Assembly (NCBI RefSeq): GCF_009469615.1
Contig: NZ_SSXX01000007.1
Span: 62,001 to 126,000, forward strand
Direction: 5' to 3'
Length of the DNA stretch: 64,000 bases
DNA from: Dechloromonas sp. H13
Lineage (GTDB): Bacteria; Pseudomonadota; Gammaproteobacteria; Burkholderiales; Rhodocyclaceae
The translations under genes were made by a program, and so were the position numbers. Below, in pieces: positions 899-61,863 of this stretch. Within the stretch, counting starts at the first letter, position 1; every line of letters begins with the position of its first letter. The notes beneath the pieces were generated by a model. The model ran no database searches and was not told the DNA's origin. It saw only the letters and a program-made list of their open reading frames with translations.

Positions 899-3800
899 AT
901 GTTGCCGCCGTCGCTCGACGCCTACACGGAGAAGCACCTGCGCGAGTGGCTGGGCCAGCGCGAACTGGACAAGGCGCGCCCCTATGTCGAGGTCGTCCGC
1001 GATCTCGAGGTCGACCCGGAATTCATCCGCGCCGTAGTGCCCGGCACGGCGCGCAAGCCCTACCTGGCGATGGCCAAGCTGGTCACCGGCAAGCAGGGCG
1101 TGCAGACCCTGGCCAGCACCTGCACCTGCCCGGTCGGCGGCCATTGCAAGCACGTCGCGGCGATGCTGCTGCGCGCCATGGAAGAGCGCAGCACGCCCGA
1201 CCGCGTCAGCCCCGGCGTCCTGTCGTGGGTCGAGGACCTGCGCCGCGCCTCGATCGCCGTCGCCAAGAAGAAGGCGCGCCCGTCAGGCGCCCGCCAGCAG
1301 CTGTTCTACCTGCTGAAGTGGACGGCCGACCAGCGCCATTTCGGCATCGAGATCGCCAAGGGCAAGTTCCCGGACAGCGCCGAGGAGTGGTGGAATATCG
1401 AGCGCGCGCTGGTCAATCCGCCGCAGTTCGTCAACGAGGAAGACCTCGGCATCCTGCGCCCGCTGTGGGCCGACCGCCTGCACGAAAGCGGCCTGCGCGC
1501 CTTCGGCCTCGGACCGCGGCACGGCGCCGAGGTACTGCAGCGCCTGGTGCAGAGCGGCCGCTTCTACGCCGACAACGGCGACGGCCTGCCGCTCACCGAG
1601 GGCCAGCCGCGCCCGGCCACCGTCGGCTGGCGGGTCGACGCGCGCGGGATGCAGCGCCCGCTGCTGCTCGCCCAGCCGGCGGCGGCGCTGATCGTCCCGG
1701 TCCAGCCGCCGTGGTATGTCGACCTGGCCGAAGGCGAGGCCGGCCCGCTCGAGGTGGCCGGCAATCCGGCGGTCATCGCCCGCCTGTTCAGCCTGCCGCC
1801 GCTGTCGGCCCGCGAGGCGGCCGTGGTCGCCCAGACCCTCTCCGAACTGGCGCCCGAACTGCCGAAACCGGCCGAGGACGCCACCGTCCGCCTGCGCACG
1901 GTGGACGCGCCGCTGCAGCCGGTCCTCCAGCTCGACACCGTGCCGACCCACGGCAACCGGGCGTGGCGCGGCTACCCGGCCTGCCTGGCCGGCGACTACT
2001 TCGACGTCGCCCGCCCCGTTTTCCGCTATGCCGACGTCGACGTCCGCCCCGACGAGCATCACGAATTCGTCACCCTGCCGGAGGGCGAGACGGTCCACCT
2101 CAAGCGGCGCCCCGAGGCGGAAATGCGTGCCCTGCAGGCGTTGACCGCAGCCGGCTTCGAGAAGCTTCCGTCGCACACCCTCGACACCTTCGGCCGGCCG
2201 CCCGAGGGCGTGTACGGGCTGGTCAGCGAAAACGCCTGGCCCGCCTTCATGCAGGACGGCCGCGAGGCGCTGCGCGCCGCCGGCTGGCAGGTCGAATACC
2301 CGGAGGATTTCCGCCATCACCTGCTTGAGGTCGACGGCTGGGAAGCCGATCTCGTCGAATCCGACAACGGCTGGTTCGACCTCGACATGGGCATCATCGT
2401 CGACGGCGAGCGCCTGGCGCTGGCCCCGCTGCTCGCCGCGCTGTTCCGCCGCGACGCACGCTGGCTGGAAAGCGTGCTGATCGAGGCGATCCCCGACGAC
2501 GAGCCGATCGAGCTGCAGACGCCGCTGCGCCAGCGCATCCGCGTCCCGGCCAGCCGCATCAAGCCGCTGGCGGCAACGCTGATCGACCTCTTCGACGGCT
2601 TTGCCGGCGGCGACACGCTGCGCGTCTCGCGCTTCGATGCGCCGCGCCTGTCCGAGCTGACCGACACCAGCCGCTGGCAGTTCCGCGGCCAGGGCGACAT
2701 CTTGGCGCTCGCCGAGCAGCTGCGCGCCGCCCAGGGCGTCACCAGCATCGCCGCGCCGGCCGGCCTGCGCCTCGAACTGCGCGACTACCAGAAGGAGGGC
2801 CTCGCCTGGCTGCAGTTCCTGCGTGCGCAGAACCTGTCGGGCATCCTCGCCGACGACATGGGCCTCGGCAAGACGGCGCAGACCCTGGCCCACCTGTTGC
2901 TCGAAAAGGAGAGCGGACGTCTCGACAAGCCGGCGCTGATCGTCCTGCCGACCTCGCTGATCTTCAACTGGAAGCACGAGGCAGCGCGCTTCGCCCCCGA
3001 TCTGCGCGTGCTCTCCCTGCACGGCCCGGAACGCAAGAGCCGCTTCGCCGAGATTCCCGCCCACGACGTCGTGCTGACCACCTACCCGCTGCTCTGGCGC
3101 GATGCCGACGAACTGATGCAGCACAGCTACCACCTGCTCATTCTCGACGAGGCGCAGACGGTCAAGAACGCCCAGAGCCAGGGCGCAGAGGCGGTGCGCA
3201 AGATCGACGCCCGCCATCGCCTGTGCCTGACCGGCACGCCGCTGGAAAACCATCTGGGCGAGCTGTGGAGCCAGTTCGACTTCCTGCTCCCCGGCTTTCT
3301 CGGCGCCAACCGGCAATTCGCCCGCCACTGGCGGACGCCGATCGAGAAGCAGAACGACCGCCGGCGCCGCGACCTGCTGGCCCGCCGCATCCGCCCCTTC
3401 ATCCTGCGCCGCAAGAAGGAGGACGTGGCCCAGGAACTGCCGCCGAAGACCATCATCGTGCGTAGCGTCGAACTCGAGGGCGGCCAGCGCGACCTCTACG
3501 AAACGGTGCGCGCGGCGATGGACGTCAAGGTGCGCGACGAGATCGCCAGCCGCGGCTTCAACCGCAGCCAGATCGTCATCCTCGACGCCCTGCTCAAGCT
3601 GCGCCAGGTCTGCTGCGACCCGCGCCTGGTCAAGGCCGGTGCGGCGCGCAAGGTCAAGGAGCGGGCCAAGCTCGACCTCTTGATGGCGATGCTGCCGGAA
3701 CTGGTCGACGAGGGCCGGCGTATCCTCGTCTTCTCGCAATTCACCAGCATGCTGGCGCTGATCGAGGAAGAACTCGCCGCCGTCGGCCTCGACTATGCGC

Positions 3801-4177
3801 TGCTGACCGGCGACACCGGCGACCGCGAAACGCCGATCCGCCGCTTCCAGGAAGGCGAGGTGCCGATCTTCCTGATCAGCCTCAAGGCCGGCGGCGTCGG
3901 CCTCAACCTGACCGCCGCCGACACCGTCATCCACTATGACCCGTGGTGGAACCCGGCCGTCGAGAACCAGGCCACCGACCGCGCCCACCGCCTCGGGCAG
4001 GACAAGCCGGTATTCGTCTACAAGCTGATCGTCGGCGGCAGCATCGAGGAAAAGATCCTCGCCCTGCAGGAACGCAAGGCCGAACTGGCGGCCGGCATCC
4101 TCTCCGAGGATCGCGGCGTCGACCTCAAGTTCGGCAGCGACGACCTAGCCGCGCTGTTCGAACCCCTGCCCGGTTAA
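899..4177 (+). CDS. SWIM zinc finger plus SNF2-type helicase
   Basis: The 1092-residue protein carries an N-terminal SWIM finger (C75, C77, C83, H85 in CTCPVGGHCKH) and a C-terminal SNF2/RapA-type ATPase. Motif I DDMGLGKT lies near residues 652-660, motif II DEAQ near 750, motif III LTGTPLEN near 775, and the helicase C-terminal domain ends with a QATDRAHRLGQ motif VI. Such proteins are dsDNA translocases that remodel protein-DNA or RNA polymerase complexes. The SWIM finger suggests nucleic-acid or protein binding; the substrate is unknown. ATG at 899 sits 7 bp after ubiB. A plus-oriented copy of the repeat word GTTGACCGCAGC lies at 2140. Confidence 0.93.
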   Translation: MLPPSLDAYTEKHLREWLGQRELDKARPYVEVVRDLEVDPEFIRAVVPGTARKPYLAMAKLVTGKQGVQTLASTCTCPVGGHCKHVAAMLLRAMEERSTPDRVSPGVLSWVEDLRRASIAVAKKKARPSGARQQLFYLLKWTADQRHFGIEIAKGKFPDSAEEWWNIERALVNPPQFVNEEDLGILRPLWADRLHESGLRAFGLGPRHGAEVLQRLVQSGRFYADNGDGLPLTEGQPRPATVGWRVDARGMQRPLLLAQPAAALIVPVQPPWYVDLAEGEAGPLEVAGNPAVIARLFSLPPLSAREAAVVAQTLSELAPELPKPAEDATVRLRTVDAPLQPVLQLDTVPTHGNRAWRGYPACLAGDYFDVARPVFRYADVDVRPDEHHEFVTLPEGETVHLKRRPEAEMRALQALTAAGFEKLPSHTLDTFGRPPEGVYGLVSENAWPAFMQDGREALRAAGWQVEYPEDFRHHLLEVDGWEADLVESDNGWFDLDMGIIVDGERLALAPLLAALFRRDARWLESVLIEAIPDDEPIELQTPLRQRIRVPASRIKPLAATLIDLFDGFAGGDTLRVSRFDAPRLSELTDTSRWQFRGQGDILALAEQLRAAQGVTSIAAPAGLRLELRDYQKEGLAWLQFLRAQNLSGILADDMGLGKTAQTLAHLLLEKESGRLDKPALIVLPTSLIFNWKHEAARFAPDLRVLSLHGPERKSRFAEIPAHDVVLTTYPLLWRDADELMQHSYHLLILDEAQTVKNAQSQGAEAVRKIDARHRLCLTGTPLENHLGELWSQFDFLLPGFLGANRQFARHWRTPIEKQNDRRRRDLLARRIRPFILRRKKEDVAQELPPKTIIVRSVELEGGQRDLYETVRAAMDVKVRDEIASRGFNRSQIVILDALLKLRQVCCDPRLVKAGAARKVKERAKLDLLMAMLPELVDEGRRILVFSQFTSMLALIEEELAAVGLDYALLTGDTGDRETPIRRFQEGEVPIFLISLKAGGVGLNLTAADTVIHYDPWWNPAVENQATDRAHRLGQDKPVFVYKLIVGGSIEEKILALQERKAELAAGILSEDRGVDLKFGSDDLAALFEPLPG

Positions 4178-4222
4178 GGGGGTCATTTTCGGCCGTTTCT
4201 CGGCGTCGACCGCAACCGGCGC

Positions 4223-4228
4223 TACAAT
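4223..4228 (+). promoter_or_regulatory. Candidate -10 element for the DUF302 gene
   Basis: TACAAT lies 35 bp before the ATG at 4264. The expected -35 position has no good match; it abuts the repeat word GTCGACCGCAAC at 4205-4216. The hexamer alone supports this call. Confidence 0.3.
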
Positions 4229-4263
4229 CCACCAATCAGAAAACGCTAATAAATGGAGTTGCC

Positions 4264-4704
4264 ATGCGCCGCCTCGCCCTCCTCGTCGTCCTTGCCCTGA
4301 GCGCCGGCCTGGCGCTCGCCGAAGACTGGGCCGTCCGCCAGAAGGTGGCGACCAGCTTCGCCGACACGCGCGACGGCATCGTCATGGCGATCGAGAACCG
4401 CGGGCTGGTCATCAACTACACCTCGCACATCGGCGACATGCTGGCGCGGACCGGGGCCGACATCGGCGCCAAACGCAAGGTGTTCGAGCAGGCGGAAATC
4501 ATCGAATTCTGTTCGGCCGGCCTGTCGCGCAGGATGATGGAAGCCGACCCGCACAACATCGTGCTGTGCCCCTTCGCGATTTCCATCTACACCCTGCCCG
4601 GCGACCCGACCGGCACCTGGGTCGCCTACCGCCGGCCGCAGGGCAAGGCGGCGGCCATGGTCGAGGGCCTGCTCAAGGAAATCGCCGCCGAAGCCGGGCG
4701 CTGA
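4264..4704 (+). CDS. Exported DUF302-domain protein
   Basis: The 146-residue protein starts with a clear signal peptide (MRRLALLVVLALSAGLALA) and continues with a single DUF302-like domain, recognisable from the pattern of a short helix, GLVINYTSHIGDML, and a C-terminal CPFAISIYTLP strand followed by WVAYRRP. The function of DUF302 proteins is not established; many are periplasmic and some bind heme or metals. The start at 4264 was chosen because it follows a GGAG sequence (about 4255) and begins the signal peptide; a longer upstream frame would overlap the helicase. The gene converges with pncC. Confidence 0.82.
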   Translation: MRRLALLVVLALSAGLALAEDWAVRQKVATSFADTRDGIVMAIENRGLVINYTSHIGDMLARTGADIGAKRKVFEQAEIIEFCSAGLSRRMMEADPHNIVLCPFAISIYTLPGDPTGTWVAYRRPQGKAAAMVEGLLKEIAAEAGR

Positions 4705-4706
4705 AA

Positions 4707-4743
4707 ACCGGCCGTTACCGGGCGTCGACCGCAAGCGGCCGGT
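4707..4743 (-). terminator. Hairpin terminator of pncC with the repeat word in its loop
   Basis: ACCGGCCG (4707-4714) and CGGCCGGT (4736-4743) form a perfect 8-bp stem. Read on the minus strand the stem is followed by TTTT, fitting termination of pncC. The 21-nt loop contains GTCGACCGCAAG, a one-mismatch copy of the window-wide repeat word. Confidence 0.45.
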
Positions 4744-7049: not shown

Positions 7050-7051
7050 AC

Positions 7052-7726: not shown

Positions 7727-8980
7727 CTACACCCCCTCGAACAGCTGCACCTCGACGCGGTCGCCGGCCTGCACGCCGGCGCAGTCTTCCGGCAGGACGA
7801 CGAAGCAGTTTGCCTCCGACATCGAGCGCAGCACCCCCGACCCCTGGTTGCCGGTGGTTTTGACCTGCCAGCGGCCGTCGACCGCAGCCACCGTGCCGCG
7901 CAGGTATTCGCGGCGGCCGGGCTGCTTCCTGATGGCGTTGGCGGCCGTCACCGTCAGCAGCGGACGTTCGGGCAGCGGATCGAGACCGGACAGGCGCAAC
8001 AGGGCGTCGAGCGCGAACTGGGTGTAGCTGACCATCACCGCCACCGGGTTGCCGGGCAGGCCGAACAGCCAGGCGTCGCCGATCTTGCCGAAAGCCATCG
8101 GGCGACCGGGCTTGATGTTGAGCTTCCAGAACCCGACCTCGCCGAGGCGGGCGAGGATTTCACGGACGAAATCGGCCTCGCCGACGGACACGCCGCCGGT
8201 GGTGATGATCGCGTCGGCGACGCCGGCGGCTTCGCGCAGCGTCGCTTCCAGCGCTTCCGGCACGTCGGGGACGACGCCGAGGTCGATCAGGTCGGCGCCC
8301 AGGCGGGTCAGCAGGCCGTGCAGGGTGTAGCGGTTGCTGTCGTAGATCTGGCCGGGCGCCAGCGGCGTGCCGATCGACGCCAGTTCGTCGCCGGTCGAGA
8401 AGAAGGCGACGCGCAGGCGGCGCCGGACCGCCACCTCGGCGATGCCGAGCGAGGCGATGAGCCCCAGTTCGGCCGGACCGACGCGCTTGCCGGCGGCCAG
8501 CGCGACGGCGCCGTGCGCCAGGTCCTCGCCGGCGCGCCGGGTGTTCTGGCCTTTTTTCTGGCCGGCGGGAACGAGGACGGCGCCGTCCTCGACGCGCGTC
8601 ACCTCCTGCACCACCACGGTATCAGCCCCGGCCGGCAGCACGGCGCCGGTCATGATGCGCACCGCCTGCCCCTTGCCGACCAGCCCGGAGAAGGCGTTGC
8701 CGGCGAAGGCGCTGCCGACCACCTGCAGGCGCGTTTCACCGTCGCCGGCGAGGCTGTCGAAGCGGACCGCGTAGCCGTCCATTGCCGAGTTGTCGTGCGC
8801 CGGCACGTCGTGCGGGGCGACGATGTCGGCTGCGAGGATGCGGCCCAGCGCGCTGCGCAGCGGCACAAACTCGCGGCCGGCGACCGGCGCCACCTGCGCC
8901 AGCAGGTGGGCGCGCGCCTCGTCGGCGGAGAGGGCGCGGTTTTCGGGGGCGTACGAGGCGCAGGAGGAGGTGTCGGTCAT
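7727..8980 (-). CDS. moeA: Molybdopterin molybdenumtransferase
   Basis: The 417-residue protein has the three-domain MoeA layout: DNSAMDGYAV near residues 70-79, the central TGGVSVGEADF segment, and the PGNPVAVMVSY motif. MoeA inserts molybdate (or tungstate) into adenylated molybdopterin. The ATG at 8980 is 4 bp past the end of tupA on the same strand, so a tupB-tupC-tupA-moeA operon couples oxyanion import to insertion; this points to a MoeA that may handle tungstate. The longer in-frame extension upstream overlaps tupA and was rejected. A repeat word GTCGACCGCAGC is at 7877. Confidence 0.96.
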   Translation of the reverse strand: MTDTSSCASYAPENRALSADEARAHLLAQVAPVAGREFVPLRSALGRILAADIVAPHDVPAHDNSAMDGYAVRFDSLAGDGETRLQVVGSAFAGNAFSGLVGKGQAVRIMTGAVLPAGADTVVVQEVTRVEDGAVLVPAGQKKGQNTRRAGEDLAHGAVALAAGKRVGPAELGLIASLGIAEVAVRRRLRVAFFSTGDELASIGTPLAPGQIYDSNRYTLHGLLTRLGADLIDLGVVPDVPEALEATLREAAGVADAIITTGGVSVGEADFVREILARLGEVGFWKLNIKPGRPMAFGKIGDAWLFGLPGNPVAVMVSYTQFALDALLRLSGLDPLPERPLLTVTAANAIRKQPGRREYLRGTVAAVDGRWQVKTTGNQGSGVLRSMSEANCFVVLPEDCAGVQAGDRVEVQLFEGV

Positions 8981-8984: not shown

Positions 8985-9791
8985 TCACGGTTTGGCGTTG
9001 GGGAAGAAGACCTGCTGGCCGTCGGCGCGGAAGGCGGCGATCGCTGCCTGGCCTTCCGGCGAGACCAGCCACTGGGCGAAGCGCTCGGCGGCGTCCTTTT
9101 TGACATGCGGGTGGCGCGCCGGGTTCACCGGGATCACGCCGTAGGGATTGAACAGCACCGGGTCGCCGGCGAGCACGAGATCGAGGTCGCGGCGATTTTT
9201 GAAGGCGTACCAGGTGGCGCGGTCGGACAGCGTGTAGGCGCTGGTCGCCGCCGCCATGTTGAGCGTCGGGCCCATGCCGCTGCCGGTTTCCTTGTAGCCG
9301 GCCAGCGCCTTCGGATCGACGCCGGCGTCCTTCCACAGGCGCAGCTCGGCGGCGTGCGTGCCGCTCTTGTCGCCACGCGAGACGAAGGGCTGGCCGCTGC
9401 CGGCGATCGCCTTGAGCGCGTTCAGCGCGCTGCCGGCGTTGCGGATTTTCGCCGGGTCATCCTTGGGGCCGATGAAGACGAAATCGTTGTACATGACGTC
9501 CTTGCGGTAGCTGCCGTAGCCTTCGGCGACGAACTTGTCCTCGGCGGCGCGGTCGTGCACGAACAGCACGTCGGCATCGCCGCGGCGGCCGATGTCGAGC
9601 GCCTGGCCGGTGCCGACGGCGACGACACGCACCTTGATCGCGGTCGACTGCTCGAATCTGGGCAAAATCCAGCCGAAGAGGCCGGACTGCTCGGTCGACG
9701 TGGTCGACGCGACGACCAGCGTCTCGTCGGCGTGGGCGACGCCGGCCATCAGGCCCAGGACAAGCATCAACGATCGAAGGTAATGCGCCAT
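8985..9791 (-). CDS. tupA: Tungstate ABC transporter, periplasmic binding protein
   Basis: The 268-residue protein has a signal peptide ending near AGVAHA and then VVASTTSTEQSGLFGWILP, the characteristic TTST...SGL oxyanion-binding start of TupA. GTGQALDIGRRGDADVLFVHD and YNDFVFIGP are also typical. TupA binds tungstate very tightly and distinguishes it from molybdate; ModA proteins lack this motif set. It is the third gene of tupB-tupC-tupA, and its first 25 bp overlap tupC. Specificity for tungsten fits the aldehyde oxidoreductase at 27-29 kb. A molybdate preference cannot be excluded from sequence alone. Confidence 0.93.
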   Translation of the reverse strand: MAHYLRSLMLVLGLMAGVAHADETLVVASTTSTEQSGLFGWILPRFEQSTAIKVRVVAVGTGQALDIGRRGDADVLFVHDRAAEDKFVAEGYGSYRKDVMYNDFVFIGPKDDPAKIRNAGSALNALKAIAGSGQPFVSRGDKSGTHAAELRLWKDAGVDPKALAGYKETGSGMGPTLNMAAATSAYTLSDRATWYAFKNRRDLDLVLAGDPVLFNPYGVIPVNPARHPHVKKDAAERFAQWLVSPEGQAAIAAFRADGQQVFFPNAKP

Positions 9792-11242: not shown

Positions 11243-11569
11243 TTATTTATTCGCTGCGGGCGCCGGTGTAGCCGCAACCGGCGCAGCTGCCGCCGGTGCC
11301 GCGGCGGCAGGCGGTGCCGGCGGGGCGATCGGTGTGGGCTTGACGGTGATGCCGTTGGCCTTCTGCTGCTTGATGAAGGCTTCGGCGACGCGGTTCTGGG
11401 CGTTGGCCAGTTGTTCGGCTTCGAGCTTGGCGGTTTCGGCGGCCTTGGCCTTGGCTTCTTCGGCCTTGGCCTTGGCTTCCTCGGACGGCGGCGGCAGTTT
11501 GGCCCAGGCGCCGGCACTGGCTACGGTCAACGCCAGAATCAGGGCGAATTTGCTTGGTTTCATGTTCAT
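11243..11569 (-). CDS. Small exported Ala/Pro/Lys-rich protein
   Basis: The 108-residue protein has a signal peptide (MNMKPSKFALILALTVASAGAWA), a short charged heptad-like segment (EEAKAKAEEAKAKAAETAKLEAEQL) likely to form a coiled coil, and an Ala/Pro-rich tail. No family is recognised. ATG 11569 was chosen because GGGGAGA lies 7-10 nt upstream. It lies 10 bp downstream of the formate dehydrogenase gamma gene on the same strand and may be the last gene of that operon. Its composition resembles the exported protein at 30686-31033. Confidence 0.68.
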   Translation of the reverse strand: MNMKPSKFALILALTVASAGAWAKLPPPSEEAKAKAEEAKAKAAETAKLEAEQLANAQNRVAEAFIKQQKANGITVKPTPIAPPAPPAAAAPAAAAPVAATPAPAANK

Positions 11570-12600: not shown

Positions 12601-12816
12601 TCACTTGATCCGGTTGTACTCGGTTTGCCCCTGATTGCGCGCGCGCAGGGCATTTTCCCAGGCCTGCTTGTTGCCGGCGAACTTCTCGCCCTCCCACGGC
12701 CGGACGTCGGACTTGCCCTGGTAGTTGCCCTGCTTGTAGTTGGGCACCTGCGAGTATTCGCCGCAGGCAACGAGGCCGACGGTTACGGTCAACACCAGAA
12801 ATAGCGCCTTTTTCAT
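12601..12816 (-). CDS. Small lipoprotein inserted between FDH beta and gamma genes
   Basis: The 71-residue protein has a lipoprotein signal peptide with lipobox LVAC (Cys at about residue 18), then a short polar Gln/Asn/Tyr-rich domain with PNYKQGNYQGKSDVRPWEG. I do not recognise a family. Its ATG overlaps the beta-subunit stop (ATGA), and the gamma gene starts 10 bp after it, so it is made together with the enzyme. A periplasmic assembly or anchoring role for formate dehydrogenase is an inference from position only. Confidence 0.72.
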   Translation of the reverse strand: MKKALFLVLTVTVGLVACGEYSQVPNYKQGNYQGKSDVRPWEGEKFAGNKQAWENALRARNQGQTEYNRIK

Positions 12817-13451: not shown

Positions 13452-16373
13452 TTAGGCCTTGGTGACACGGCAGAGCGTGGTCTTGGTTTCCTGCATCATG
13501 GTCACCGAGTCGTAACCGTAGGTCGTGCCCTGGTTGACCGACTCGCCGCGCACGATCGGCGCCGCGCCTTCGGGGTAGTACTCGAGCATGTCCTTGCCCT
13601 GCCACCAGCCGGCAAAGTGGAAGGGCAGGAAGACGGTGCCCGGCGCCACCCTTTCGGTAACCTGGGCGCGCACCTTCATGCGGCCCTTGGTCGGCGTCTC
13701 GACCCACATGAAGTCGTTGTTGCGGAAACCGGCGTTGTTGGCGTCGCGCGGATTCACCTCGCAGAACATCTCCTGCTGCAATTCGGCCAGCCACGGGTTG
13801 GAGCGGGTTTCGTCGCCCCCCCCTTCGTACTCGACGAGGCGGCCGGAGGTCATGATCAGCGGGTATTCCTTGGAAATGTCCCTGACCTTGGTCTGCAGCG
13901 ACTTGTACAGGGTCGGCAGGCGCCAGAAGACCTTCTTGTCGTCCGGCTGCGGGTATTTGTCGACGAGGTCGGGGCGCGGCGAGTACATCGGCTCGCGGTG
14001 CAGCGGCACCGGGTCGGGGAAGTTCCAGACCAGGGCGCGGGCGCGGGCGTTGCCGAAGGGATGGCAGCCATACACCTTGAGGACCACTCGCTGGATGCCG
14101 CCCGACAGGTCGGTCTTCCAGTTCTTGCCCTCGGCCGCCTTCTTCTCGTCCTCGGTCAGGTCGTCCCACCAGCCGAGCTTCTTGAGCAGGACGTGGTCGA
14201 ACTCCGGGTAGCCCATCTGCAGCGCGGCGCCCTTGGAGGCCGAGCCGTCGGCAGCCAGCAGCGAAACGCCGTCGCGCTCGACGCCGAAATTGGCGCGGAA
14301 GTTGCCACCGCCGTCCATCACGTGCTTCGAGGTGTCGTAGAGGTTGGGCGTGCCGGGGTGCTTCAGTTCCGGCGTGCCATAGCACGGCCAGGGCAGGCCG
14401 AAATAGTCGCCGTCGCAGGGGCCGCCGTTGGCGCGCAAGGTCTTGACGTCGAAGGTGTGCATGTTCTTCATGTGCAGCTTCAGGCGTTCCGGCGACTGGC
14501 CGGTGTAACCGATGGTCCATGCACCGCGGTTGATTTCGCGCAGGATGTCCTCGATTTCCGGCTCGTCCCAGCCTTGCTTGTCCTTGTTCACCTTGATGTT
14601 CTTGCACAGCTCCTTCTCGAAGCCGAACTTCTTGGCGAAGGCGTACATCAGGGTATGGTCAGGCTTCGACTCGAACAGCGGTTCGATGACCTTCTCGCCC
14701 CATTGAATCGAACGGTTGGAAGCAGTGCGCGAACCGGAAGTCTCGAACTGGGTGCACGCCGGCAGCAGATAGACGCCGTCCTTGCGCATCATCGCCGCCA
14801 TCGCCGCGGTGGCCGACGGGTATGGATCGATGACGACCAGCAGATCGAGCTTCTTCATCGCCTCGACCATTTCCAGGCCACGCGTCTGGCTGTTGGGGGC
14901 CATGCCCCAGTAGACCACGGCACGCAGGTTGGAATCCTGGTCGATCGCTTCGTTCTTTTCCAGCACGCCGTCGATCCAGCGCGAAACGGTGATGCCCGAT
15001 TTTTCCATCATCGCCTGCGAGGCAAACTGGCTCTTGACCCACTCGTAATCGACGCCCCACACCTTGCACCAGTGCTTCCACGAGCCGGCGGCGAGGCCGT
15101 AATAGGCGGGCAGCGAATCCGGATTGGGGCCGACGTCGGTGGCGCCCTGCACGTTGTCGTGGCCGCGGAAGATGTTGGTGCCACCGCCGGAGACGCCGAC
15201 GTTGCCGAGCACCAGCTGCAGGATGCACATGGCGCGGACGTTGGCGTTGCCGACCGTGTGCTGGGTCTGCCCCATGCACCAGACGACGGTGGACGGCTTG
15301 TTCTTGGCCAGCATCTCGGCGATGCGCAGCACTTCGGCTTCGGGGATGCCGGTGACGTCCTGGACGCGCTCCGGCGTCCACGTCATGACTTCGGCCTTAA
15401 CCTTGTCGAGACCGAAGACACGGGCGTCGATGTAGGCCTTGTCTTCCCAGCCGTTCTTGAAGATGTGGTAGAGCATGCCTCAGATGAAGGGAATGTCGGT
15501 GCCGGAACGGATGCGCGTGTAGATGTCGGCCTTGGCCGCCGTGCGCGTGAAGCGCGGGTCGACGACCGCCATCTTGCAGCCGTTTTCCTTGGCATGCAGC
15601 ATGTGCAGCAGCGACACCGGGTGCGCCTCGGCGGCGTTGGAGCCGATGTACAGCGCCGCCTTGGAGAACTGCATGTCGTTGTAGGAGTTGGTCATGGCGC
15701 CGTAACCCCAAGTATTGGCGACGCCGGCGACCGTGGTCGAGTGGCAGATGCGGGCCTGGTGGTCCATGTTGTTGGTGCCGAAGAAGGACACGAACTTGCG
15801 CATCAGGTAAGCCTGCTCGTTGCTGTGCTTCGACGAGCCGACCCAGTAGGTGGCGTCCGGGCCGCTTTCCTTCCTGATCGCCAGCAGTTTTTCGCTGACC
15901 TCGTTGAGCGCCTGTTCCCAGCTGATCCGCTTGTACTTGCCGTCGACCAGCTTCATCGGATACTTCAGGCGATGTTCGCCGTGACCGTGTTCGCGGACGG
16001 AGGCACCCTTGGCGCAATGCGCGCCGAGATTGATCGGCGAATCGAAGACCGGTTCCTGGCGCACCCAGACGCCGTTCTCGACGACGGCATCGACGGCGCA
16101 GCCGACCGAGCAGTGCGTACATACCGTGCGTTTGACCTCGACGCCGGTCTTGTTGTCCTTGACGACATCGGCCGCCTCGGCGCTACCGATCATGTTGTAC
16201 GGCAACTGGGTCGCCAGCGCCCCGCCGCCGGCGGCAAGGCCGGAGCGCTTGAGGAAGGTGCGGCGATCCATGGTCGCGGCCAGCACATTGCCGGTTGCGG
16301 TCGACCCCGGATTTGCAGCCAAAATGACGCCGGCTTCCGGGCGCGCCGCAGATTTCGCTTTTCTGGTCAGCAT
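13452..16373 (-). CDS. Formate dehydrogenase alpha subunit, interrupted by one in-frame TGA
   Basis: This gene encodes a molybdenum or tungsten bis-MGD enzyme of about 973 residues that oxidises formate to CO2. A twin-arginine signal ([10 protein letters not shown], near residue 35) shows export by the Tat system. The first [4Fe-4S] motif CTHCSVGC...HCAKG follows, then the metal ligand Cys at codon 210 (ARICHS), where E. coli FdnG has selenocysteine. An in-frame TGA at 15480-15482 (codon 298, DIPFI-TGA-GMLYHIF) splits the frame; both halves are otherwise intact and in the same phase. Homologues usually have Trp there, so this is probably TGG to TGA. It may be a real nonsense mutation or a sequencing error. 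Confidence 0.88.
15480..15482 (-). other. In-frame TGA within the formate dehydrogenase alpha gene
   Basis: TGA at codon 298 follows ...GTDIPFI and precedes GMLYHIF. The frame does not shift. The catalytic ligand position (codon 210) is an ordinary Cys, so this TGA is not at the selenocysteine site, and no FdhF-like SECIS hairpin is evident just downstream. Confidence 0.9.
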
Positions 16374-17234: not shown

Positions 17235-18907
17235 TCGGTCATCTCCCAGGCTTTCGTGCTCTTTTCGTGGTTGATCAGGTCGATCACGCGGCAATCGCCG
17301 CACATGGTCAGTCGCGCCCTGGCTTCCGGCGTCGCGAACATGCTGTGGCCGGACAATTTGCCAAGCATGTTCATGATCGTCGGCGCCGCTCCCATCGGCT
17401 TGCCGCAGACGGTACAGCAGAATACCTCGGCCTCCCTGAGAATGCGCTCATGGCGGCGCTCCTTCAGGAGCAGGCGGGGCGTCAGCGTGATGGCCCGCTC
17501 CGGGCAGGTGCCGGCGCACAGGCCGCACTGGATGCAGTTGCGTTCGAGGAAGGAGAGGCGCGGCGCATCGGCCGCCGCCTTCAGGGCGCTGGCCGGACAG
17601 GCGCTGGTGCACGCCATGCACAAGGTGCAGGCGTCGCTTACCGCCACCATGCCGAACGGCGCGCCGGCCGGCAGATCGATGGCATCGACCGGTGCCGGGG
17701 CATGTTTGGCCAGATGGTCGATTACGAATTCGAGCGTCGTCCGCTTGTCGGCGAACAGCCGGAATTCGGCCGGTGGCACGGTCAACGGCGCCGGCCAGCC
17801 ACCCAGGACGCCGGCCAGGTCGTCGGCGTCGCCGACGACCTTCACGTAGTCGCCGGCGTAGCCGAGGCCGTTGAGAACGACATGGGCGATCCCCGCCTGT
17901 TTATGCAGCGGCGCCAGATCGTGTGAGCCGGCGCCGAGCAGGGCGACCCGGCCGGCGCCCAGCGCAATGGCGCCGAGCATCAGGTCGAGCCCGACGGCGT
18001 CGATGCTCCAGGTTTCGACCGGAATGACGTTGGCCGGCAACTTCCCGCCGCCACGCTTGAGCGCCGCCAGCGCCTTTTTTCCGGCCTCGGCGGAATGGAA
18101 CAGCAGGCAGGGGTTTTCGCCGCCGGCAGCGCGCCAGGCCTTGAGCTGGGCCTTGATGGCGACACCGACATCGACGACACGCGGATACTCGAACGCCAGC
18201 GCCCCGGACGGACAGACCGTCGTGCAGGTGCCGCAACCTTGGCACAGGTAAGGATCGAGCGCGATCTTGTCGCCGGCGCTGACGATGGCCTCGGTTGCGC
18301 AGACCTCGATGCAGTTGCTGCAGCCGGCTTTTTGCGAACGGCTGTGGGCGCACAGGCGTTCATTGACGGCGACGTAGCGCGGCTTCTCGAATTCGCCGGC
18401 AAAGCCGAGCAGGTCGATGATGGCCAGCGCCTGGTCGAGCGGGTCGCGCCCCGGTGCGACATAGCCTGGCGGCAGTTCGACGCGCTTGAGCAGGGCTTGC
18501 GGCGAGAGGTCGAGAACGACATCGAAGCGCTCCTGCCGGGCGCCGAGAGCGCCTTGCCAGCTGGCGACGAAGGCGCCGAGGTGGCCGGCCAGCCGCACAT
18601 CGCTGCCGTTCTCGAAAACGAAATTGGACTCTTCCGGCAGGTCGACCGCAGCAGCCGGGGCAGCCGGCGCCAGGACGGTCACCCGGCGCTGCCCGGCCAG
18701 GCGCTCGGCCCAGCCCAGCGCCACCGCGGCGGGGCCGACGATGAGCAGGCGATCGTCGGCGCTCATGCTGACCGCCGGCACCGGCTCGGGTGCCGGCAGA
18801 TCGTTCAGGACCGCCAGCGCGGCGGCCAGCGGCGGATTTTCGGAAAGGGGCAAGTTGGTGGAAACGGCTGGACTCAAGGCTTCACCTTCAAAAAAGTGCT
18901 TCTGCAC
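17231..18907 (-). CDS. Polyferredoxin-like accessory protein of the FDH operon
   Basis: The 558-residue protein has four ferredoxin-type cysteine groups: CSNCIEVC and CQGCGTCTTVCP near residues 200-240, then CTLCMACTSACP and CIQCGLCAGTCP near residues 430-475. A C-terminal CCTVCGKP and CGDC pair could bind zinc. The region between is a Rossmann-like stretch (LLIVGPAAVALGWAERL). It is probably a cytoplasmic electron-transfer or maturation partner of formate dehydrogenase; this rests on context. The frame begins with GTG at 18907 and lacks a clear ribosome site, so a start inside the first 45 residues is possible. A repeat word is at 18641. Confidence 0.85.
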   Translation of the reverse strand: MQKHFFEGEALSPAVSTNLPLSENPPLAAALAVLNDLPAPEPVPAVSMSADDRLLIVGPAAVALGWAERLAGQRRVTVLAPAAPAAAVDLPEESNFVFENGSDVRLAGHLGAFVASWQGALGARQERFDVVLDLSPQALLKRVELPPGYVAPGRDPLDQALAIIDLLGFAGEFEKPRYVAVNERLCAHSRSQKAGCSNCIEVCATEAIVSAGDKIALDPYLCQGCGTCTTVCPSGALAFEYPRVVDVGVAIKAQLKAWRAAGGENPCLLFHSAEAGKKALAALKRGGGKLPANVIPVETWSIDAVGLDLMLGAIALGAGRVALLGAGSHDLAPLHKQAGIAHVVLNGLGYAGDYVKVVGDADDLAGVLGGWPAPLTVPPAEFRLFADKRTTLEFVIDHLAKHAPAPVDAIDLPAGAPFGMVAVSDACTLCMACTSACPASALKAAADAPRLSFLERNCIQCGLCAGTCPERAITLTPRLLLKERRHERILREAEVFCCTVCGKPMGAAPTIMNMLGKLSGHSMFATPEARARLTMCGDCRVIDLINHEKSTKAWEMTE

Positions 18908-18937: not shown

Positions 18938-19381
18938 CTATCGCCCGCTAAGCTGTTGATTTTCGGACGGCGCTGCGGCTGGCGTTTCAGCGACCGGGAC
19001 ATTTTGTCCCTCGGCGGCCAGAATGTCGCAACCTGCAGGCGTTTCGGCCGCTGGCCCTGCCTCTTCGGGCGCCTCGAAGAGCAGGCCACGCGCCTGGTTG
19101 AGCGTCGCCAGCATCGCCTCGGGAATCGGCTCGCTGATCGAATAATCGTCGATGTAGATGTCGAGGCCGTCCATCACGTTGAAATGGGGGTCGGCGAACA
19201 GGGTTTTCATCGCCTTGCGCCGCACTTCCTCGCCGATTTCCTGGCGCAGGAAATGGCCGAAATCGCTGTCCGGCGTCAGGTTGGCGAGCAGGCTCTCGGG
19301 GTCGGTGATCTCTGCGGTCGACGCCTTGTCGGCGGCCTTTTTCAGGCGCGACCAGCGCTCGAGAAAACGGCTGCCGCTCAT
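18938..19381 (-). CDS. DUF3306 protein of the FDH operon
   Basis: The 147-residue protein begins SGSRFLERWSRLKK and contains the conserved DFGHFLRQEIGEEVRRKAMKTLF and GLDIYIDDYS motifs of DUF3306, a family found only beside formate dehydrogenase gene sets. The function is unknown. The C-terminal third is Ala/Pro/Glu-rich and probably disordered. The start at 19381 overlaps the DUF3305 stop codon (ATGA). The gene ends 30 bp before the polyferredoxin gene. Confidence 0.87.
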   Translation of the reverse strand: MSGSRFLERWSRLKKAADKASTAEITDPESLLANLTPDSDFGHFLRQEIGEEVRRKAMKTLFADPHFNVMDGLDIYIDDYSISEPIPEAMLATLNQARGLLFEAPEEAGPAAETPAGCDILAAEGQNVPVAETPAAAPSENQQLSGR

Positions 19382-19845
19382 GGCTGGCGCTGCCCGGCAA
19401 ACGGATCGTTGCGCTTGATCTTCTTGCGCACTGCCGGCTTGTAGTGGGTATTGACGAAGTCGCCCAGCCAGTCGGCGATTTCCGGCGGCATCGGCACGCC
19501 GTCGCACTGCTCGCCGGAATCGAGCCAGCGGGCGGCTTCGCCGTAGCTCAGGGTGACTTCCACCGGCTTCGCAAAATCGTCGTCCATGCGCCACATGACG
19601 AAAACGCGCGGCTCGGGCGAGCTCAGATTGAGATGGTAGTTATCGACCTCGTCGCGGAACAGTTCGAGCGGAAAGTGGCCGACCAGGAATTGCTCGCGCT
19701 CTTCATCCGCGAAAATGCGCTTGGCCGGCGCGTCGACCGCAGCATCGAAGGCGGGAACGACGCCGATCGCTTCCCATTTCTCGCTGACCCAGCGGTTGTC
19801 GATCTGCTGCTTTTCGATGATTACGGAAACCGGAAACTGCTTCAT
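19378..19845 (-). CDS. DUF3305 protein, first gene of the FDH operon
   Basis: The 155-residue protein starts with FPVSVIIEKQQIDNRWVSEKW and carries FHLNLS-like (YHLNLSSPEPRVFVMWRMDD) and VTLSYGEAARWLDSGEQ motifs that mark DUF3305. The family co-occurs with formate dehydrogenases and its function is unknown. ATG 19845 is the start; the 66-bp divergent gap to fdhD must hold promoters for both. A repeat word GTCGACCGCAGC is at 19732. Confidence 0.87.
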   Translation of the reverse strand: MKQFPVSVIIEKQQIDNRWVSEKWEAIGVVPAFDAAVDAPAKRIFADEEREQFLVGHFPLELFRDEVDNYHLNLSSPEPRVFVMWRMDDDFAKPVEVTLSYGEAARWLDSGEQCDGVPMPPEIADWLGDFVNTHYKPAVRKKIKRNDPFAGQRQP

Positions 19846-25880: not shown

Positions 25881-26124
25881 CGGCGATCGGCGGCCACACC
25901 GCCAGCGTGTCGCCGTCCTTGAGGCAGGTTGCGGCCCGCGCCTCGGGCGGGATGAAGACGCCGTTCACGAGAACCAGATGGGTCAGTTTCGGCGGCAGCG
26001 AAAACGGCCGCAGAACGGTGTCGACCGCAGCAGCCTCGGCCGCTTCGATTTCCACCTTGTTGCCCTTGCTACCGGGCGGCAGGTAGTCGCCCAGCGTGGC
26101 GTAGAGCTTGACGGTCACCCGCAC
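25873..26124 (-). CDS. MoaD/ThiS-family sulfur carrier of the AOR operon
   Basis: The 83-residue ubiquitin-fold protein starts with VTVKLYATLGDYLP and ends in Gly-Gly (WPPIAGG), the residue pair that is adenylated and thiocarboxylated in MoaD proteins. It probably supplies dithiolene sulfur to make the tungstopterin of the neighbouring aldehyde oxidoreductase. It uses GTG at 26124, 4 bp after the FAD-subunit gene. A repeat word lies at 26020. Confidence 0.9.
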   Translation of the reverse strand: MRVTVKLYATLGDYLPPGSKGNKVEIEAAEAAAVDTVLRPFSLPPKLTHLVLVNGVFIPPEARAATCLKDGDTLAVWPPIAGG

Positions 26125-43006: not shown

Positions 43007-46000
43007 CCCGCGATCAAGGCGAGCAACTGGTCCTCGTCGTAGGGTTTGCCGAGGTAGTCGCTGGCGCCGACCTCGAGTGCGTGGTTTCGGTGCTTCTCGG
43101 CCGTCCGCGAGGTGATCATGATCACCGGCAGGCCGCTGAGACGCTTGTCGGCGCGGATGTTGCGCACCAGATCGAAACCGTCCATGCGCGGCATTTCGAT
43201 GTCGGAGAGCACGACATCGGGTACGACTTCGAGCAGTTGCTCTAGCGCATCGACCCCGTCCTTGGCCAGGACGACCTGATAACCTTCGCGGGTCAGCAGG
43301 CGGCTGGTGATCTTGCGTACCGTCAGCGAATCGTCGACCACCATCACCGTCGGCAGGCTGGCCGCCGCAGTAGCCACCGGTTCGGCGAACACCGGGGCCT
43401 CGCTTTGGACGCTGACCACCGGGATCCGGCTGGCCAGCGCCACCGGATTGAGGATCAGCACGACCTGGCCATCGCCCAGCACGGTGGCGCCGGCGATGCC
43501 GACCACCCGCGAGAGCTGGGCGCCGATATTCTTGACGACGACTTCCTGGTTGCCCCGGAGCTCGTCTACCTGCACGGCGACGCGTTGCGAACCAGAACGC
43601 AGCAACAGGATCCAGTAGCGGCGCTGCGCCTCGGGAGCCGCCCCGGTGTCGCCCAGAAGATGCGGCAGGAAATGGAAGGGATAGCGATTGCCCATCCACT
43701 CCGCTTCGCCACGCTGGCGCACGTCCGCAAGCTGCTCTTCCTTGAGTTCCAGCACCTGCTCGATCATCGTCGATGGCACGGCGTACATCTGCGAACCGAC
43801 ACGCAACAGCAGGGTTTGCGTCACCGCCAGCGTGAGCGGCAGGTAGAGGCGGAAGGTCGTTCCATGACCCGGCTGGGAAAGAATTTCGATCCGCCCGCCA
43901 AGTTCGGCGACCTCGGTCTTGACCACGTCCATGCCGACGCCCCGGCCGGCCAGCTGGCTGACCTCGCCGGCCGTCGAAAAGCCCGGACGAAAGATCATGT
44001 CGTAGAGCACGGCCTCGTCTGCGGCCTCGCCCGGTGCGAGGAGGCCCATCGCCTCGGCGCGGGCGCGGATGCGCTGGCCGTCCAGGCCACGACCGTCGTC
44101 GGCCATCGAAAGGATGATTTCATTGCCTTCCTGGGCCAGCGACACGGTGATATCGCCGATTTCCGGCTTGCCGGCAGTCTGCCGCTCGGCCCGGGGCTCG
44201 ATTCCGTGCGCCACGGCATTGCGCAGCATGTGCTCGAGCGGCGCCATCATCTTGTCAAGCACCGAGCGGTCGAGTTCGACCTGGCCGCCGACGATGTCGA
44301 AGTTGGTCCGCTTGCCCAGTTCCTTCGCGCTCTGGCGGACGATGCGGAACAGGCGCTCGGCCTGGCTGGCGAACGGCATCATGCGCACGCCCATCAGTTC
44401 CTGTTGCAGGCCGCGGTTGAGGCGGGCCTGCGCGACGATGGCGGCATTGGCGTCGTCAAGGTTCTTGAGCAGGTTCTGCTGCACGGTCGCGACGTCGTTG
44501 ACCGACTCGGCCATGAAGCGCGTCAGTTCCTGGAAGCGGGTGAAACGGTCGAGTTCGAGCGGATCGAAATCGGCGTGGCCCTCGTGCGCCTGGGCGACGC
44601 GCGCCTGAATCTGACCTTCGGCCTGGATTTCGATTTCACGCAACTGGCGGCGCAGACGAATCACGTTTTCCGTCAGGTCGAGCAGCGAGCCCTTGAGGCT
44701 GCGCATTTCGCCCTCGATCCGCGCGCGGGCGATGGACAGTTCGCCTGCCTCGTTGACCAGGCGGTCGATCAGGTCGGCGCGGACGCGGAGCGTGGCGCGA
44801 TGGGCGCCCGCCTCGGCGTCGTGATCGCGCTCGATTTCGAGCGGCACCGCCACCGTCGGCGCGACGGCTGCCGGCGTTTCGCCCGGCGCAACAGCAGCGA
44901 CCGGCTCGGGAATCGCGGATTCGCCGTGGCGCAGACGCTCGGTCGCCTGGGCCAGCGTGTCACAACCGCCCTCGATTTCATCGATGAAGGCCGGCGTCGC
45001 GCTGCCAGCGCGGAGAATGTCCTCGACCCGCGCTTCCAGGTGGTGCGTGAACTCGCCGAGGTTCATCGCGCCGGCCATGCGGGCATTGCCCTTGAAGGTA
45101 TGGAGCAGGCGGGCGATGGCATGCGGCTGGGCATCGCTACCGAGATCGCCGCGCCACAGGCGCAACTGGACCGTCAGTTCGCGCAGCTGATCCTGCGCCT
45201 CTTCAAGGAAGATCGGCAGCAACTGTTCGTCGAGTTCGTCCTGCAGTCGCGGCACGGCTGGCTGCGGGGCTTGGACGACGGTTTCGACCGTTGCCGCTGG
45301 CTCGGGTTGCGGCGCGACCTCTTCCACGACGAACTCAGGTTCCGGTTCAAACTGAACGAACTCAGGTTCCAGTTCAGGCTGAACGACCTCCGGCACCGAC
45401 ACGGTGACGAAGACGTCCTCGAGCGCCGAAATCAGCTGCACCTGTTCTTCCGGCGCCTCTTGACGGGCCAATCCGGCAAACATGGCGTCCAGGGTGATGA
45501 TCGCCTGGCGCACCGTCTCCAAACCTTCGATGCTGTCCGGCCGGCCGGAACTGTCGCGACGCAGCAGCGCATGCTCGAGCGCAATCGCGAGGCGGTTCAG
45601 GGGCATCAGCCCGACGGTCGCCGCGATGCCGCCCAGGGTATGGGCGGCGCGCGTCATATCGAACAAGGTCGGCGCCAGGGGATCGGCTTCGAGTGCCGCA
45701 TAGGTGGCAAGCAGCGTCTGCAGATGGCCGCGCGCCTCGTCGCAGAAGATGTCGTACAGCGTCGGCGCCGGGGGTGCCGGGGGAATTTCGACAATTTCGG
45801 GCGTCGACCGCAACTCCTCGACTTCCGGCACCGGCAACTCGGCGAATGCCTGGGTCGTGTCTTCCCACGGTGGCGGAGCTGCCGGCTGTTCGAAAATCTC
45901 CGGCGGCTGCGCAGTTTCCGCCACTAGCTCGGGTTCGGCCGACAGGTCGAACAGGAACTCGTCCGCCATCGGCAGCGGCGCCTCGGCCGGCACAGCGGCA

Positions 46001-53206: not shown

Positions 53207-53828
53207 ACTGCGCGGCCTCTACGCCATCACGCCCGAGCGCGCCGACGGCGGGCGCCTGCTCGCTGCCGTCGAAGCCGCCCTGGCCGGCGGCTGCCATCTC
53301 GTCCAGTTCCGCGACAAGGTCAGCGCCATGCCCGAGCGCGTCGCCCGCGCCCGCGCCCTGCGTGCCCTGACCCGCCGCTACGGTGCCCGGCTCCTGATCA
53401 ACGACGACCTCGCGCTGGCCGCCCTGGTCGATGCCGACGGCGTGCACCTCGGGCGCGACGACAGCTGCCTTGCCGCCGCCCGCGCCATGCTCGGCCCCGA
53501 CAGGATTCTCGGCGCCTCATGCTACGCCGACTTCGCCGCAGCCGAACGCGCAGCAGCGGCCGGCGCCGACTATCTCGCCTTCGGCGCCGTGCATCCGTCG
53601 CCGACCAAGCCGCATGCCCCGCTGGCTGCGGTCGACCTGTTTTTCCAGGCCAAGACGGCGCTGACCGCAACGACCTGCGCCATCGGCGGCATCACGCTCG
53701 CCAACGCGCCCCCGCTGATCGCCGCCGGCGCCGACCTGCTCGCCGTCATCAGCGACCTGTTCGACGCCCCGGACATCGCGGCCCGGGCGGCCGCCTATCA
53801 ACGACTCTTCGAGGAGCACAGCACATGA
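53196..53828 (+). CDS. thiE: Thiamine-phosphate synthase
   Basis: The 210-residue TIM-barrel protein joins HMP-PP and thiazole phosphate. [40 protein letters not shown] and IGGITLAN are family motifs. It starts within thiD and its stop overlaps the hemL start (ATGA), so thiamine and heme genes are translationally linked. Repeat words lie at 53625 and 53660 (one mismatch). Confidence 0.95.
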
Positions 53829-55443: not shown

Positions 55444-55466
55444 CTGCTGCGGTCGACGGCGAAAAA

Positions 55467-55485
55467 AGGCCGATTTTCAAAGCCT
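55467..55485 (-). terminator. Weak terminator of mgtE
   Basis: On the minus strand a short AGGC/GCCT stem (loop about 11 nt) is followed by six T residues. The stem is only 4 bp. The repeat word GTCGACCGCAGC (minus strand, 55446-55457) lies immediately beyond it. Confidence 0.35.
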
Positions 55486-57689: not shown

Positions 57690-58510
57690 GCCGCCAGTTG
57701 TGCGCGCAGGGCGGCGAGAACCGGCGCGCTGTCCGGGCGCACCCCGCGCCAGACGAGGAAGGCTTCGGCCGCCTGCTCGACCAGCATGCCGAGGCCGTCG
57801 GCCCGCCGGGCGGCACCCTGTTCGCGGGCCAGCGCCAAAAACGGCGTCTCGCCCTTGCCGTACATCATGTCGTAGGCGAGGCTGCCCGGCGCGAAAATGC
57901 CGGCCGGTAGCGGCAAGGCCGCGCCGGAAAGACTGGCCGACGTGGCGTTAATCACGATATCGAAGCAATTGCCGGCGATTTCGGCGAAATTTCCTGCGTC
58001 GACCGCAGCGATGTCGGAAAACTGCCGGGCCAGGGCCGCCGCCTTGTCGGCGGTGCGGTTGGCAACGAACAGGCTGGCCGGAGCGTCGGCCAGCAGCGGC
58101 GCGATCACGCCGCGCGCGGCGCCACCGGCGCCAAGCAGGAGGATGCGCTTGCCGGCCAGCGGAAAGGCGAGGTTGGCCTCGATGTCGCGCACCAGACCGG
58201 CGCCGTCGGTATTGTCGCCGTAGATTTCGCGCCCCGCGAAGGCCAGTGTATTGACCGCGCCCGCCCGTTCGGCGCGGGCGCTCAGGCGGGTGCTCAGACG
58301 GAACGCCTCTTCCTTGAACGGCACCGTCACGTTCGCGCCCTTGCCGCCGGCGGCGATGAAGCCGCGCACCGTTTCGGCGAAGCCGTCGAGCGGCGCCAGC
58401 AGGGCTTCATAGACGAGGTCCTGCCGGCATTGCGCGGCGAATTGCGCATGAATGGCCGGCGACCGGGAATGGGCAACCGGGTTGCCCAGCACGCAATAAC
58501 GGTCGGTCAT
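57686..58510 (-). CDS. aroE: Shikimate dehydrogenase
   Basis: The 274-residue NADP-dependent enzyme has [15 protein letters not shown], the catalytic Lys/Asp region [13 protein letters not shown] and [11 protein letters not shown], and the [12 protein letters not shown] dinucleotide motif. It reduces 3-dehydroshikimate in aromatic amino-acid synthesis. It lies in a tight rnb-like, tonB, aroE, mtgA series with 4-bp overlaps. A repeat word is at 57998. Confidence 0.96.
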
Positions 58511-61286: not shown

Positions 61287-61293
61287 CGGCGGA

Positions 61294-61863
61294 TTATAGC
61301 CCAGCGAATTCAAGGATTTGCGGCATGAAGTCGGGAAAGCGCGTGAAGCTGTGGTCGCCGCCTGTCAGCACCGTTTGCCGGCAGCCCGCGTAGAAATCCG
61401 CCGCCTGCCGCCAGTCGAGAACTTCATCGCCCTCCTCGAGCAGCAGCCAGTAGCGCGCCGGCGTTGGCCGGGCGACCTGGGCCTGCAGTTGCGCAGCGTG
61501 CGCCTGGCTGAAGAAGAAGGTTTCCCCGGTGTGGAAATTGGCATGGTCGCCGACGAATTTAGCCGCATCCAGGCGGTCGACCGCAGCAGGGTTGATCAGG
61601 ACCGCATTCAGGCCATGTTTTTCGGCCAGATGGTTGGCGTAATGCCCGCCGAGCGAGCTGCCGACCAGCGTGACCGGGCCGCCGGCCGCTTCGATCAGGC
61701 ACCCGACGTCGGCCACCGCCACGTCCGGTACCGGCGACAGCTGCGGACAGACGAAATGCCCGGCCAGCCCGCGCCCGGCCATGTATTCGGCGAGCAACCG
61801 GGATTTCCACGACGCCGGCGACGAACAGAAGCCGTGCAGGTAGATGATCAGTGGGCAGTCCAT
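61294..61863 (-). CDS. YqiA/YcfP-type alpha/beta hydrolase
   Basis: The 189-residue protein starts [23 protein letters not shown] and has the nucleophile elbow [14 protein letters not shown], a late Asp region and GGDHSFTRF with the catalytic His. It is an esterase of the YqiA/UPF0227 type; the substrate is unknown. It overlaps the end of uppP by 16 bp. A repeat word is at 61576. Confidence 0.9.

Follow-up and report, generated by a model that had tools for sequence, protein, structure and literature searches.

Uptake of DNA directed by a sequence motif is known only in the Neisseriaceae and the Pasteurellaceae, according to the portion of the source consulted (PMC12616744). The hallmarks given for the Pasteurellaceae uptake signal sequences (USS) in the consulted portions of PMC1626085 and PMC12616744 are many copies, no orientation bias, a preference for noncoding DNA, a strong consensus, subclade types, and sporadic loss; excerpts also give the USS inner core as GCGG (PMC12616744) and the average spacing as ∼1,000 bp (PMC7811141). 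For the DNA uptake sequences (DUS) of the Neisseriaceae, similar excerpts describe dialects around an inner core and an atypical distribution in mobile elements (PMC7371117), as well as overlapping dyad pairs in Simonsiella (PMC3630211). Here we describe a motif that recurs throughout a 64,000-nucleotide stretch of DNA from Dechloromonas sp. H13 (referred to as the window; contig C60, positions 62001 to 126000, of a 3.66-Mb genome in 62 contigs designated G000). The comparisons below make it quite likely that this motif is a real, maintained, bipartite, and genus-specific signal with the evolutionary behavior of an uptake sequence.

A sequence-only reading of the window had singled out an over-represented 12-mer, GTYGACCGCARC, which proved to be part of a longer, 33-base motif consisting of an inner core, CGGTCRAC, and two A/T tracts ∼10 to 13 and ∼20 to 24 bases past CGGT (∼11 bp apart). 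In an alignment of 117 copies, drawn from the window and the initial 400 kb of contig C6 and read core first as GYTGCGGTCRAC with its letters at positions 0 to 11, positions 17 to 20 were 56 to 78% A/T and positions 28 to 30 were 97 to 98% A/T, against a background of 34%. The second tract spans positions 27 to 31, with Y and then S after the A/T positions 28 to 30, and the refined motif was written as CGGTCRAC-N16-WWWYS. At positions 29 and 30, none of 149 refined sites in the G000 sample carried TA (AA, 50; TT, 86; AT, 13). TA was also absent from G050, G053, and G015 and was found once in G024, twice each in G039, G030, and G032, and 27 times in G071, where 25 of the 27 cases sit in one 597-bp tandem repeat. 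The second tract resembles A-tracts (runs of A or of T) and not general A/T richness.

All 16 exact copies of GTYGACCGCARC claimed for the window (positions 2140 to 61587; 12 on the plus strand and 4 on the minus strand) were recovered, and the chance expectation is indeed well below one, at 0.09 by dinucleotide shuffling (maximum of 1 in 100 shuffles). Near copies are many, as proposed, but number 12 and not about nine; at up to one mismatch, 28 sites were found versus 2.9 expected. The genome-wide count that the reading had called for gave 722 copies (375 and 347 on the two strands) versus 9 for the reversed pattern used as a control. Its argument that protein coding is not the cause also held: in predicted genes within 464 kb of this genome, synonymous-codon shuffles (n = 100) gave a mean of 6.0 and a maximum of 12 copies versus 84 observed, and 5.6 versus 110 observed for the bipartite motif. 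Gene calls throughout came from a crude caller made for this analysis that produced some shadow calls, so that fractions based on them are approximate. Because the dinucleotide shuffles, the reversed control, and the synonymous shuffles were all far lower, the 12-mer is not explained by composition or coding. The genome is GC rich, and VDRN and AAVD are frequent readings of the motif; even so, the two synonymous shuffles, the noncoding enrichment, and the existence of motif-poor congeners leave next to no probability that codon use, repeated amino acids, or GC content produced the motif as a by-product. The refined motif occurs at 1,003 sites in G000 versus 6 in its control, a density of ∼1 per 3.7 kb by the strict pattern and ∼1 per 2 kb by profile (464-kb sample).

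The consensus is strong. Perfect cores with a tract outnumbered one-mismatch cores with a tract in nine of nine positive sequence sets (149/48 in G000 and 77/23, 98/21, 53/16, 41/23, 38/15, 55/28, 23/15, and 27/12 in the others), despite the far larger number of possible one-mismatch words. Among the four negative sets (0/15, 0/4, 4/11, and 0/13), none showed a perfect excess. In ordinary regulatory sites, perfect copies do not outnumber near-perfect ones, according to the consulted part of PMC1626085.

Conservation was examined in six species pairs that are 87 to 96% identical over aligned DNA. At 136 sites where the core is accompanied by the second tract, 12 of 1,088 core bases differed (1.1%), versus 388 of 5,969 flanking bases (6.5%). 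At 28 sites where the core 8-mer lacks the second tract, it differed at 11 of 224 bases, like its own flanks (64/1,232), and five control 8-mers differed at 5 to 11% of bases. With bases counted as independent, Fisher tests gave p values of ∼2e-16 for core versus flanks and ∼0.0006 for the core with versus without the tract. For the two largest pairs, mismatch was low in the second tract as well (9/358 and 5/192), and the spacers and the left end varied much like the flanks. Because the 8-mer is unprotected without the tract and the tract has few mismatches, the core and second tract are kept as one unit.

The 12:4 strand excess in the window is local (p = 0.077), and the two strands are balanced genome-wide (p = 0.31). 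A plus-strand polarity on contig C6 was considered and rejected, as the 12-mer strands are 47:54 over its first 400 kb. Refined sites were 66:61 by strand over a 400-kb stretch whose eight 50-kb bins all have negative GC skew. An abundant short word with a skewed local strand count could be a polar guide sequence of the Chi or FtsK-orienting type, but the balanced genome-wide count and the lack of polarity over uniformly skewed DNA, where such a function is contradicted, reduce its probability to practically nil.

Most 12-mer sites (84 of 117) lie inside predicted genes, in both orientations. Intergenic DNA is nonetheless preferred: by the crude gene calls, 31 of 127 refined sites in the 400-kb stretch are intergenic, versus 14.1 expected (p ∼ 2e-5), and 3 of 22 in the window versus 1.2 expected. 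Two window copies had been placed between genes by the sequence-only reading; that at 55446 does lie in a gap by gene calls, but the near copy at 4724 is within a questionable predicted open reading frame (ORF). Spacing in G000 is more even than random, with 27 gaps below 1 kb versus 39.3 simulated (p = 0.004). In the five genome stretches examined, two motif-free gaps exceeded chance (gene names in gaps were assigned by eye from translations). One, of 28 kb in G050 (G050:C5:182219-210398), has 54% GC versus 62% around it and carries genes resembling those for surface-sugar synthesis; the other, of 30 kb in G039, is taken up mostly by a single giant ORF next to a transposase-like gene and has a GC content like its surroundings. 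Motif-free gaps may mark foreign DNA in this genus.

The motif was then followed across the genus and the order. The refined motif occurs at 300 to 1,965 sites in 40 of 76 genus genomes and at no more than 154 in the other 36 (controls, ≤19); these are raw counts per genome, and we placed the positive/negative cut in the empty range from 154 to 300. Fifty-one of the 76 genomes are well complete, and 25 fall below the mark of 90% completeness and 5% contamination. In an order-wide sample of 399 genomes, five from this genus had 689 to 1,025 sites and a sixth (G047) had 108, whereas the remaining 393, from other genera (7 of them of the same family), had at most 39 each. The 12-mer alone reached at most 11 copies in 14 genomes from other genera of the family. 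The check for enrichment in relatives that had been suggested thus finds the motif abundant only in this genus among the sampled genomes.

Iterated profiles were built from 100 to 464 kb of each of 12 genomes. In the eight motif-rich profiles, CGGTCRAC and the second tract are constant and the left end varies: the window's species has GYYG before CGGT, G051 has GCTA, G053 has CG, and G039 has no fixed bases, making this end a species dialect. Scoring by the 12-mer had marked G039 and G071 as motif losses, a result overturned by the one-mismatch search and the profiles, which show a dialect instead (G039 has 30 exact 12-mers, but 805 exact or near copies versus 225 in the control). In motif-poor species, no comparable replacement word of the same architecture was found when 80 kb was examined from each of G016, G027, G040, and G065; profile iteration ended with a single hit in G016 and another in G065, and in G027 and G040 it wandered off to unrelated consensus sequences. 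The count for G071 is inflated by at least 25 copies from a single tandem repeat, seen as 25 identical matches exactly 597 bases apart (L251-L252, G071:C1:3218641-3232969), perhaps encoding a giant repetitive surface protein. Lopsided strand counts were noted in motif-poor G065 (23:6 refined sites) and in G070 (145:99 12-mers), possibly by chance among 76 genomes.

Because G039 and G071 carry a dialect, the tree of the genus was rescored with the refined motif. The tree was a quick one, built from 11 window proteins of 40 relatives plus the window's genome and the soil metagenome-assembled genome (MAG) CTSoil_120, with Accumulibacter as the outgroup; 8 of the 40 internal branches are weak, some rows have less than half of their positions filled, and 41 of the 76 genus genomes were scored on it. 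CTSoil_120 falls inside the genus. Among the scored genomes, 31 are positive and 10 negative, and at least 8 changes of motif state are needed, counted blind to the direction of gain or loss. The motif is present on the deepest branches (G024, G015, the clade of the window's genome, and G074), and the negative species (G043, G046, G016, G027, G040/G018/G065, G029, G047, and G035) are nested. We infer that the motif was present ancestrally and that the repeated changes were mostly losses. Among the matches listed for HemL, the closest is from a soil Proteobacteria MAG (89%), and the closest that bear genus names are Accumulibacter and Sulfuritalea (76%).

The Pasteurellaceae signals, Hin-type AAGTGCGGT and Apl-type ACAAGCGGT, share with this motif a short core that has two A/T segments 3′ of it, separated by about one turn of the helix. 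The USS A/T tracts lie nearer to the core than those described here (∼+10 and ∼+20 from CGGT). Many copies, no orientation bias, noncoding preference, strong consensus, types, and sporadic loss are likewise common to both, as far as the consulted accounts of the USS go. The inner core differs, being CGGTCRAC and not GCGG; a test for GCGG failed, since CGGT is preceded mostly by A in G051 and by no fixed base in G039. The host differs as well, being a GC-rich betaproteobacterial genus and not a member of the Pasteurellaceae. A shared TGCGGT had been pointed out between the 12-mer's reverse complement and the Haemophilus signal, but as homology this likeness is not supported, as the bases left of CGGT vary by species and the constant part is CGGTCRAC with the second tract; the likeness to AAGTGCGGT is one of architecture. 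With the Neisseriaceae DUS (GCCGTCTGAA and its dialects, with ComP as the receptor), the motif shares dialects around an inner core, an atypical distribution in mobile elements, and overlapping dyad pairs, to judge from the consulted excerpts. Overlapping palindromic pairs, CGGTCGACCG flanked on each side by a tract, occurred 10 times in six sequence sets. It lacks the CTG core, however, and has distant A/T tracts that the DUS lack. Because most hallmarks are present while the core, register, density, and host differ, we class the motif as working like an uptake sequence without assigning it to the USS or DUS, and because the hallmarks of both families' signals are present, it is probably an independent one. 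An open-access literature search for DNA uptake sequence and Rhodocyclales returned nothing, and among the matches listed for wider terms and for the core letters, no such report was recognizable from the title or the start of the abstract.

Genes for a possible uptake apparatus are present. The ComEC family was found in 71 of 76 genus genomes, including 51 of 51 well-complete ones, and a minor-pilin operon on C6 (L022:4465-7648) contains PF16732 (ComP_DUS), GspH/FimT-like, PilV, and PilW members. This operon sits in a 12-kb stretch of G000 that contains no refined sites, which is within chance for a gap of this size (2.8 expected). The window encodes two PilT/PilU-family type IV pilus ATPases, which serve as context and are possible candidates for uptake machinery. 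A PF16732 pilin and an orphan prepilin were each found in 51 of 51 well-complete genomes and a FimT-like protein in 27 of 51; in contrast to ComP as the DUS receptor, the PF16732 pilin is carried regardless of the motif.

In the mechanism that we propose, a surface receptor of the competent cell, probably a minor type IV pilin, would recognize CGGTCRAC and the A-tract ∼22 bases past CGGT, assisted by the looser A/T patch ∼11.5 bases past CGGT, i.e., on the same helical face. Motif-bearing DNA would be pulled in preferentially by the pilus, which would then recombine into the chromosome. Because motif-bearing fragments would be favored, point mutations that create or keep the motif would spread, and under this drive copies would accumulate on both strands, in and between genes; they would fade once the uptake preference was lost. 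On balance, the genome comparisons incline us toward a self-DNA uptake signal that evolved independently of those of the Pasteurellaceae and Neisseriaceae and would be the third of its kind, one read through both its bases and its A-tract shape, ancestral to the genus and lost repeatedly, with left-edge dialects that possibly isolate species.

A different reader of CGGTCRAC and A-tract shape is conceivable, namely, an intracellular protein (nucleoid-associated, chromosome-organizing, or a global regulator). Such a protein would account for the joint conservation of core and second tract, the A-tract-like composition, the even spacing in G000, and the palindromic overlapping pairs. It fits poorly with perfect copies exceeding near-perfect ones, unlike ordinary regulatory sites as described in the consulted part of PMC1626085, with species dialects and at least 8 trait changes inside one genus, with most 12-mer sites lying in predicted genes, and with the lack of polarity over 400 kb; we regard it as unlikely. 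The sequence-only reading had offered DNA uptake and chromosome organization side by side. The uptake proposal is borne out by most of the computable hallmarks, and the chromosome-organizing one is disfavored by the absence of polarity in 400 kb, the dialects, and the repeated change.

Several observations weigh against an uptake signal. Some other kind of binding site under strong selection would explain much of the evidence as well. The density is lower than the ∼1 per kb of Haemophilus and Neisseria, and spacing in G039, G030, and G053 showed no difference from random. The first tract is not clearly protected, with 11 of 240 bases differing in G039/G071 (flanks, 6.3 to 6.4%) and 12 of 128 in G030/G032 (flanks, 3.7 to 4.4%); it is a composition bias, with weaker support than the second tract. 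A 14-kb phage-like gap (G050:C5:145661-159957) is within chance (0.24 expected). When candidate receptor lists were compared by eye over the 51 well-complete genomes, none of ComEC, PF16732, the FimT-like protein, and the orphan prepilin tracked the motif by presence or absence. ComEC is split or partial on both sides, in motif-rich G002, G008, and G019 and in motif-poor G043, G018, and G035. In two of these genomes the ComEC match is split near the same residue (1-28/26-267 in G002 and 1-29/26-267 in G043), with the pieces ∼34 kb apart in G002 (G002:C33:109525-144033) and ∼32 kb apart in G043 (G043:C1:2218607-2251879); the short pieces match weakly (20.9 and 23.9 bits), and the arrangement suggests a mobile element inserted in comEC.

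The origin of the copies was assessed around hemL by BLASTN against ten motif-poor relatives (31 loci holding 161 sites, with nonindependent comparisons), counting only sites inside an alignment. The motif was missing as a block in 0 of 947 coding comparisons, versus 20 of 33,221 random coding windows. Two results here also count against the proposed mechanism. Coding sites have small alignment gaps more often (258/947) than random coding windows do (3723/33221), which may reflect variable protein segments; an earlier version of the analysis without the coding split gave 284/977 versus 2088/14,282. Between genes, the block was missing in 10 of 30 comparisons versus 17 of 1780 random ones, so that intergenic copies may have been gained by insertion. 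Judged from these alignments, a point-mutation origin is clear in genes and not between genes. The missing intergenic blocks would suit a small REP/BIME-like repeat element dispersed by copying, as would the stem-loop reading that some intergenic copies allow. A hairpin or RNA structure was considered and rejected, however: mutual information showed no convincing base pairing, and the pairs above the shuffled maximum lie inside A/T runs or no more than two positions apart, with the exception of one weak pair, 34/40 (37 complementary versus 31 expected). With this lack of covariation, no sequence shared by the copies beyond the motif, no block missing in coding comparisons, and most copies in genes in both orientations, a dispersed repeat is very improbable.

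If the motif is an uptake signal, it would be a third case of specific uptake, with the architecture of the USS built on another core. A single genus holding dense, low, and near-zero species along with dialects would then allow a direct test of how specificity arises, changes, and decays, and would test whether helically spaced A-tracts are a general requirement of specific uptake. Left-edge dialects could isolate species genetically, and the motif would offer a practical handle for transforming these bacteria. Its sites in the window are listed below with the two ATPase genes.

Table 1. Motif sites and type IV pilus ATPase genes in the window. Strands of motif sites are given core first (GYTGCGGTCRAC orientation), opposite to those of the sequence-only reading.
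Feature	Position	Strand	Details
Extended motif	2119..2151	-	Exact 12-mer; core and second tract
Extended motif, intergenic by gene calls	4184..4216	-	Exact 12-mer and tract
Extended motif, 12-mer with one mismatch, inner core and tract intact	4703..4735	-	
Extended motif	7856..7888	-	Exact 12-mer and tract
Inner core and tract, left end differs	9637..9669	+	
Inner core and tract (GCTACGGTCAAC)	11520..11552	+	12-mer within one mismatch
Inner core and tract (GTTACGGTCAAC)	12782..12814	+	12-mer within one mismatch
Extended motif	16294..16326	+	Exact 12-mer and tract
Extended motif	18620..18652	-	Exact 12-mer and tract
Inner core and tract (TCTGCGGTCGAC)	19311..19343	+	12-mer within one mismatch
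Extended motif	19711..19743	-	Exact 12-mer and tract
Extended motif	21035..21067	-	Exact 12-mer and tract
Extended motif	25999..26031	-	Exact 12-mer and tract
Inner core and tract, left end differs	26718..26750	+	
Extended motif	27110..27142	-	Exact 12-mer and tract
Inner core and tract (GTCGCGGTCGAC)	32917..32949	-	
PilT/PilU-family type IV pilus ATPase	33264..34400	-	NCBIfam TIGR01420, 454 bits
PilT/PilU-family type IV pilus ATPase	34432..35475	-	NCBIfam TIGR01420, 513 bits
Inner core and tract (TATGCGGTCGAC)	36352..36384	+	
Exact 12-mer; tract off strict pattern at one position	39034..39066	+	
Extended motif	42028..42060	-	Exact 12-mer and tract
Extended motif	45782..45814	-	Exact 12-mer and tract
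Exact 12-mer; second tract not in strict form	53625..53657	+	
Extended motif, intergenic by gene calls, best profile score in window (41.2 bits)	55446..55478	+	Exact 12-mer and tract
Extended motif	57977..58009	-	Exact 12-mer and tract
Extended motif, intergenic by gene calls	61555..61587	-	Exact 12-mer and tract

Two other words are over-represented in the window, CCCTGCTCAA (6 copies versus 0.1 expected under a third-order model) and TCGGCATCG (22 versus 4.5), and their excess probably reflects codon-pair effects.

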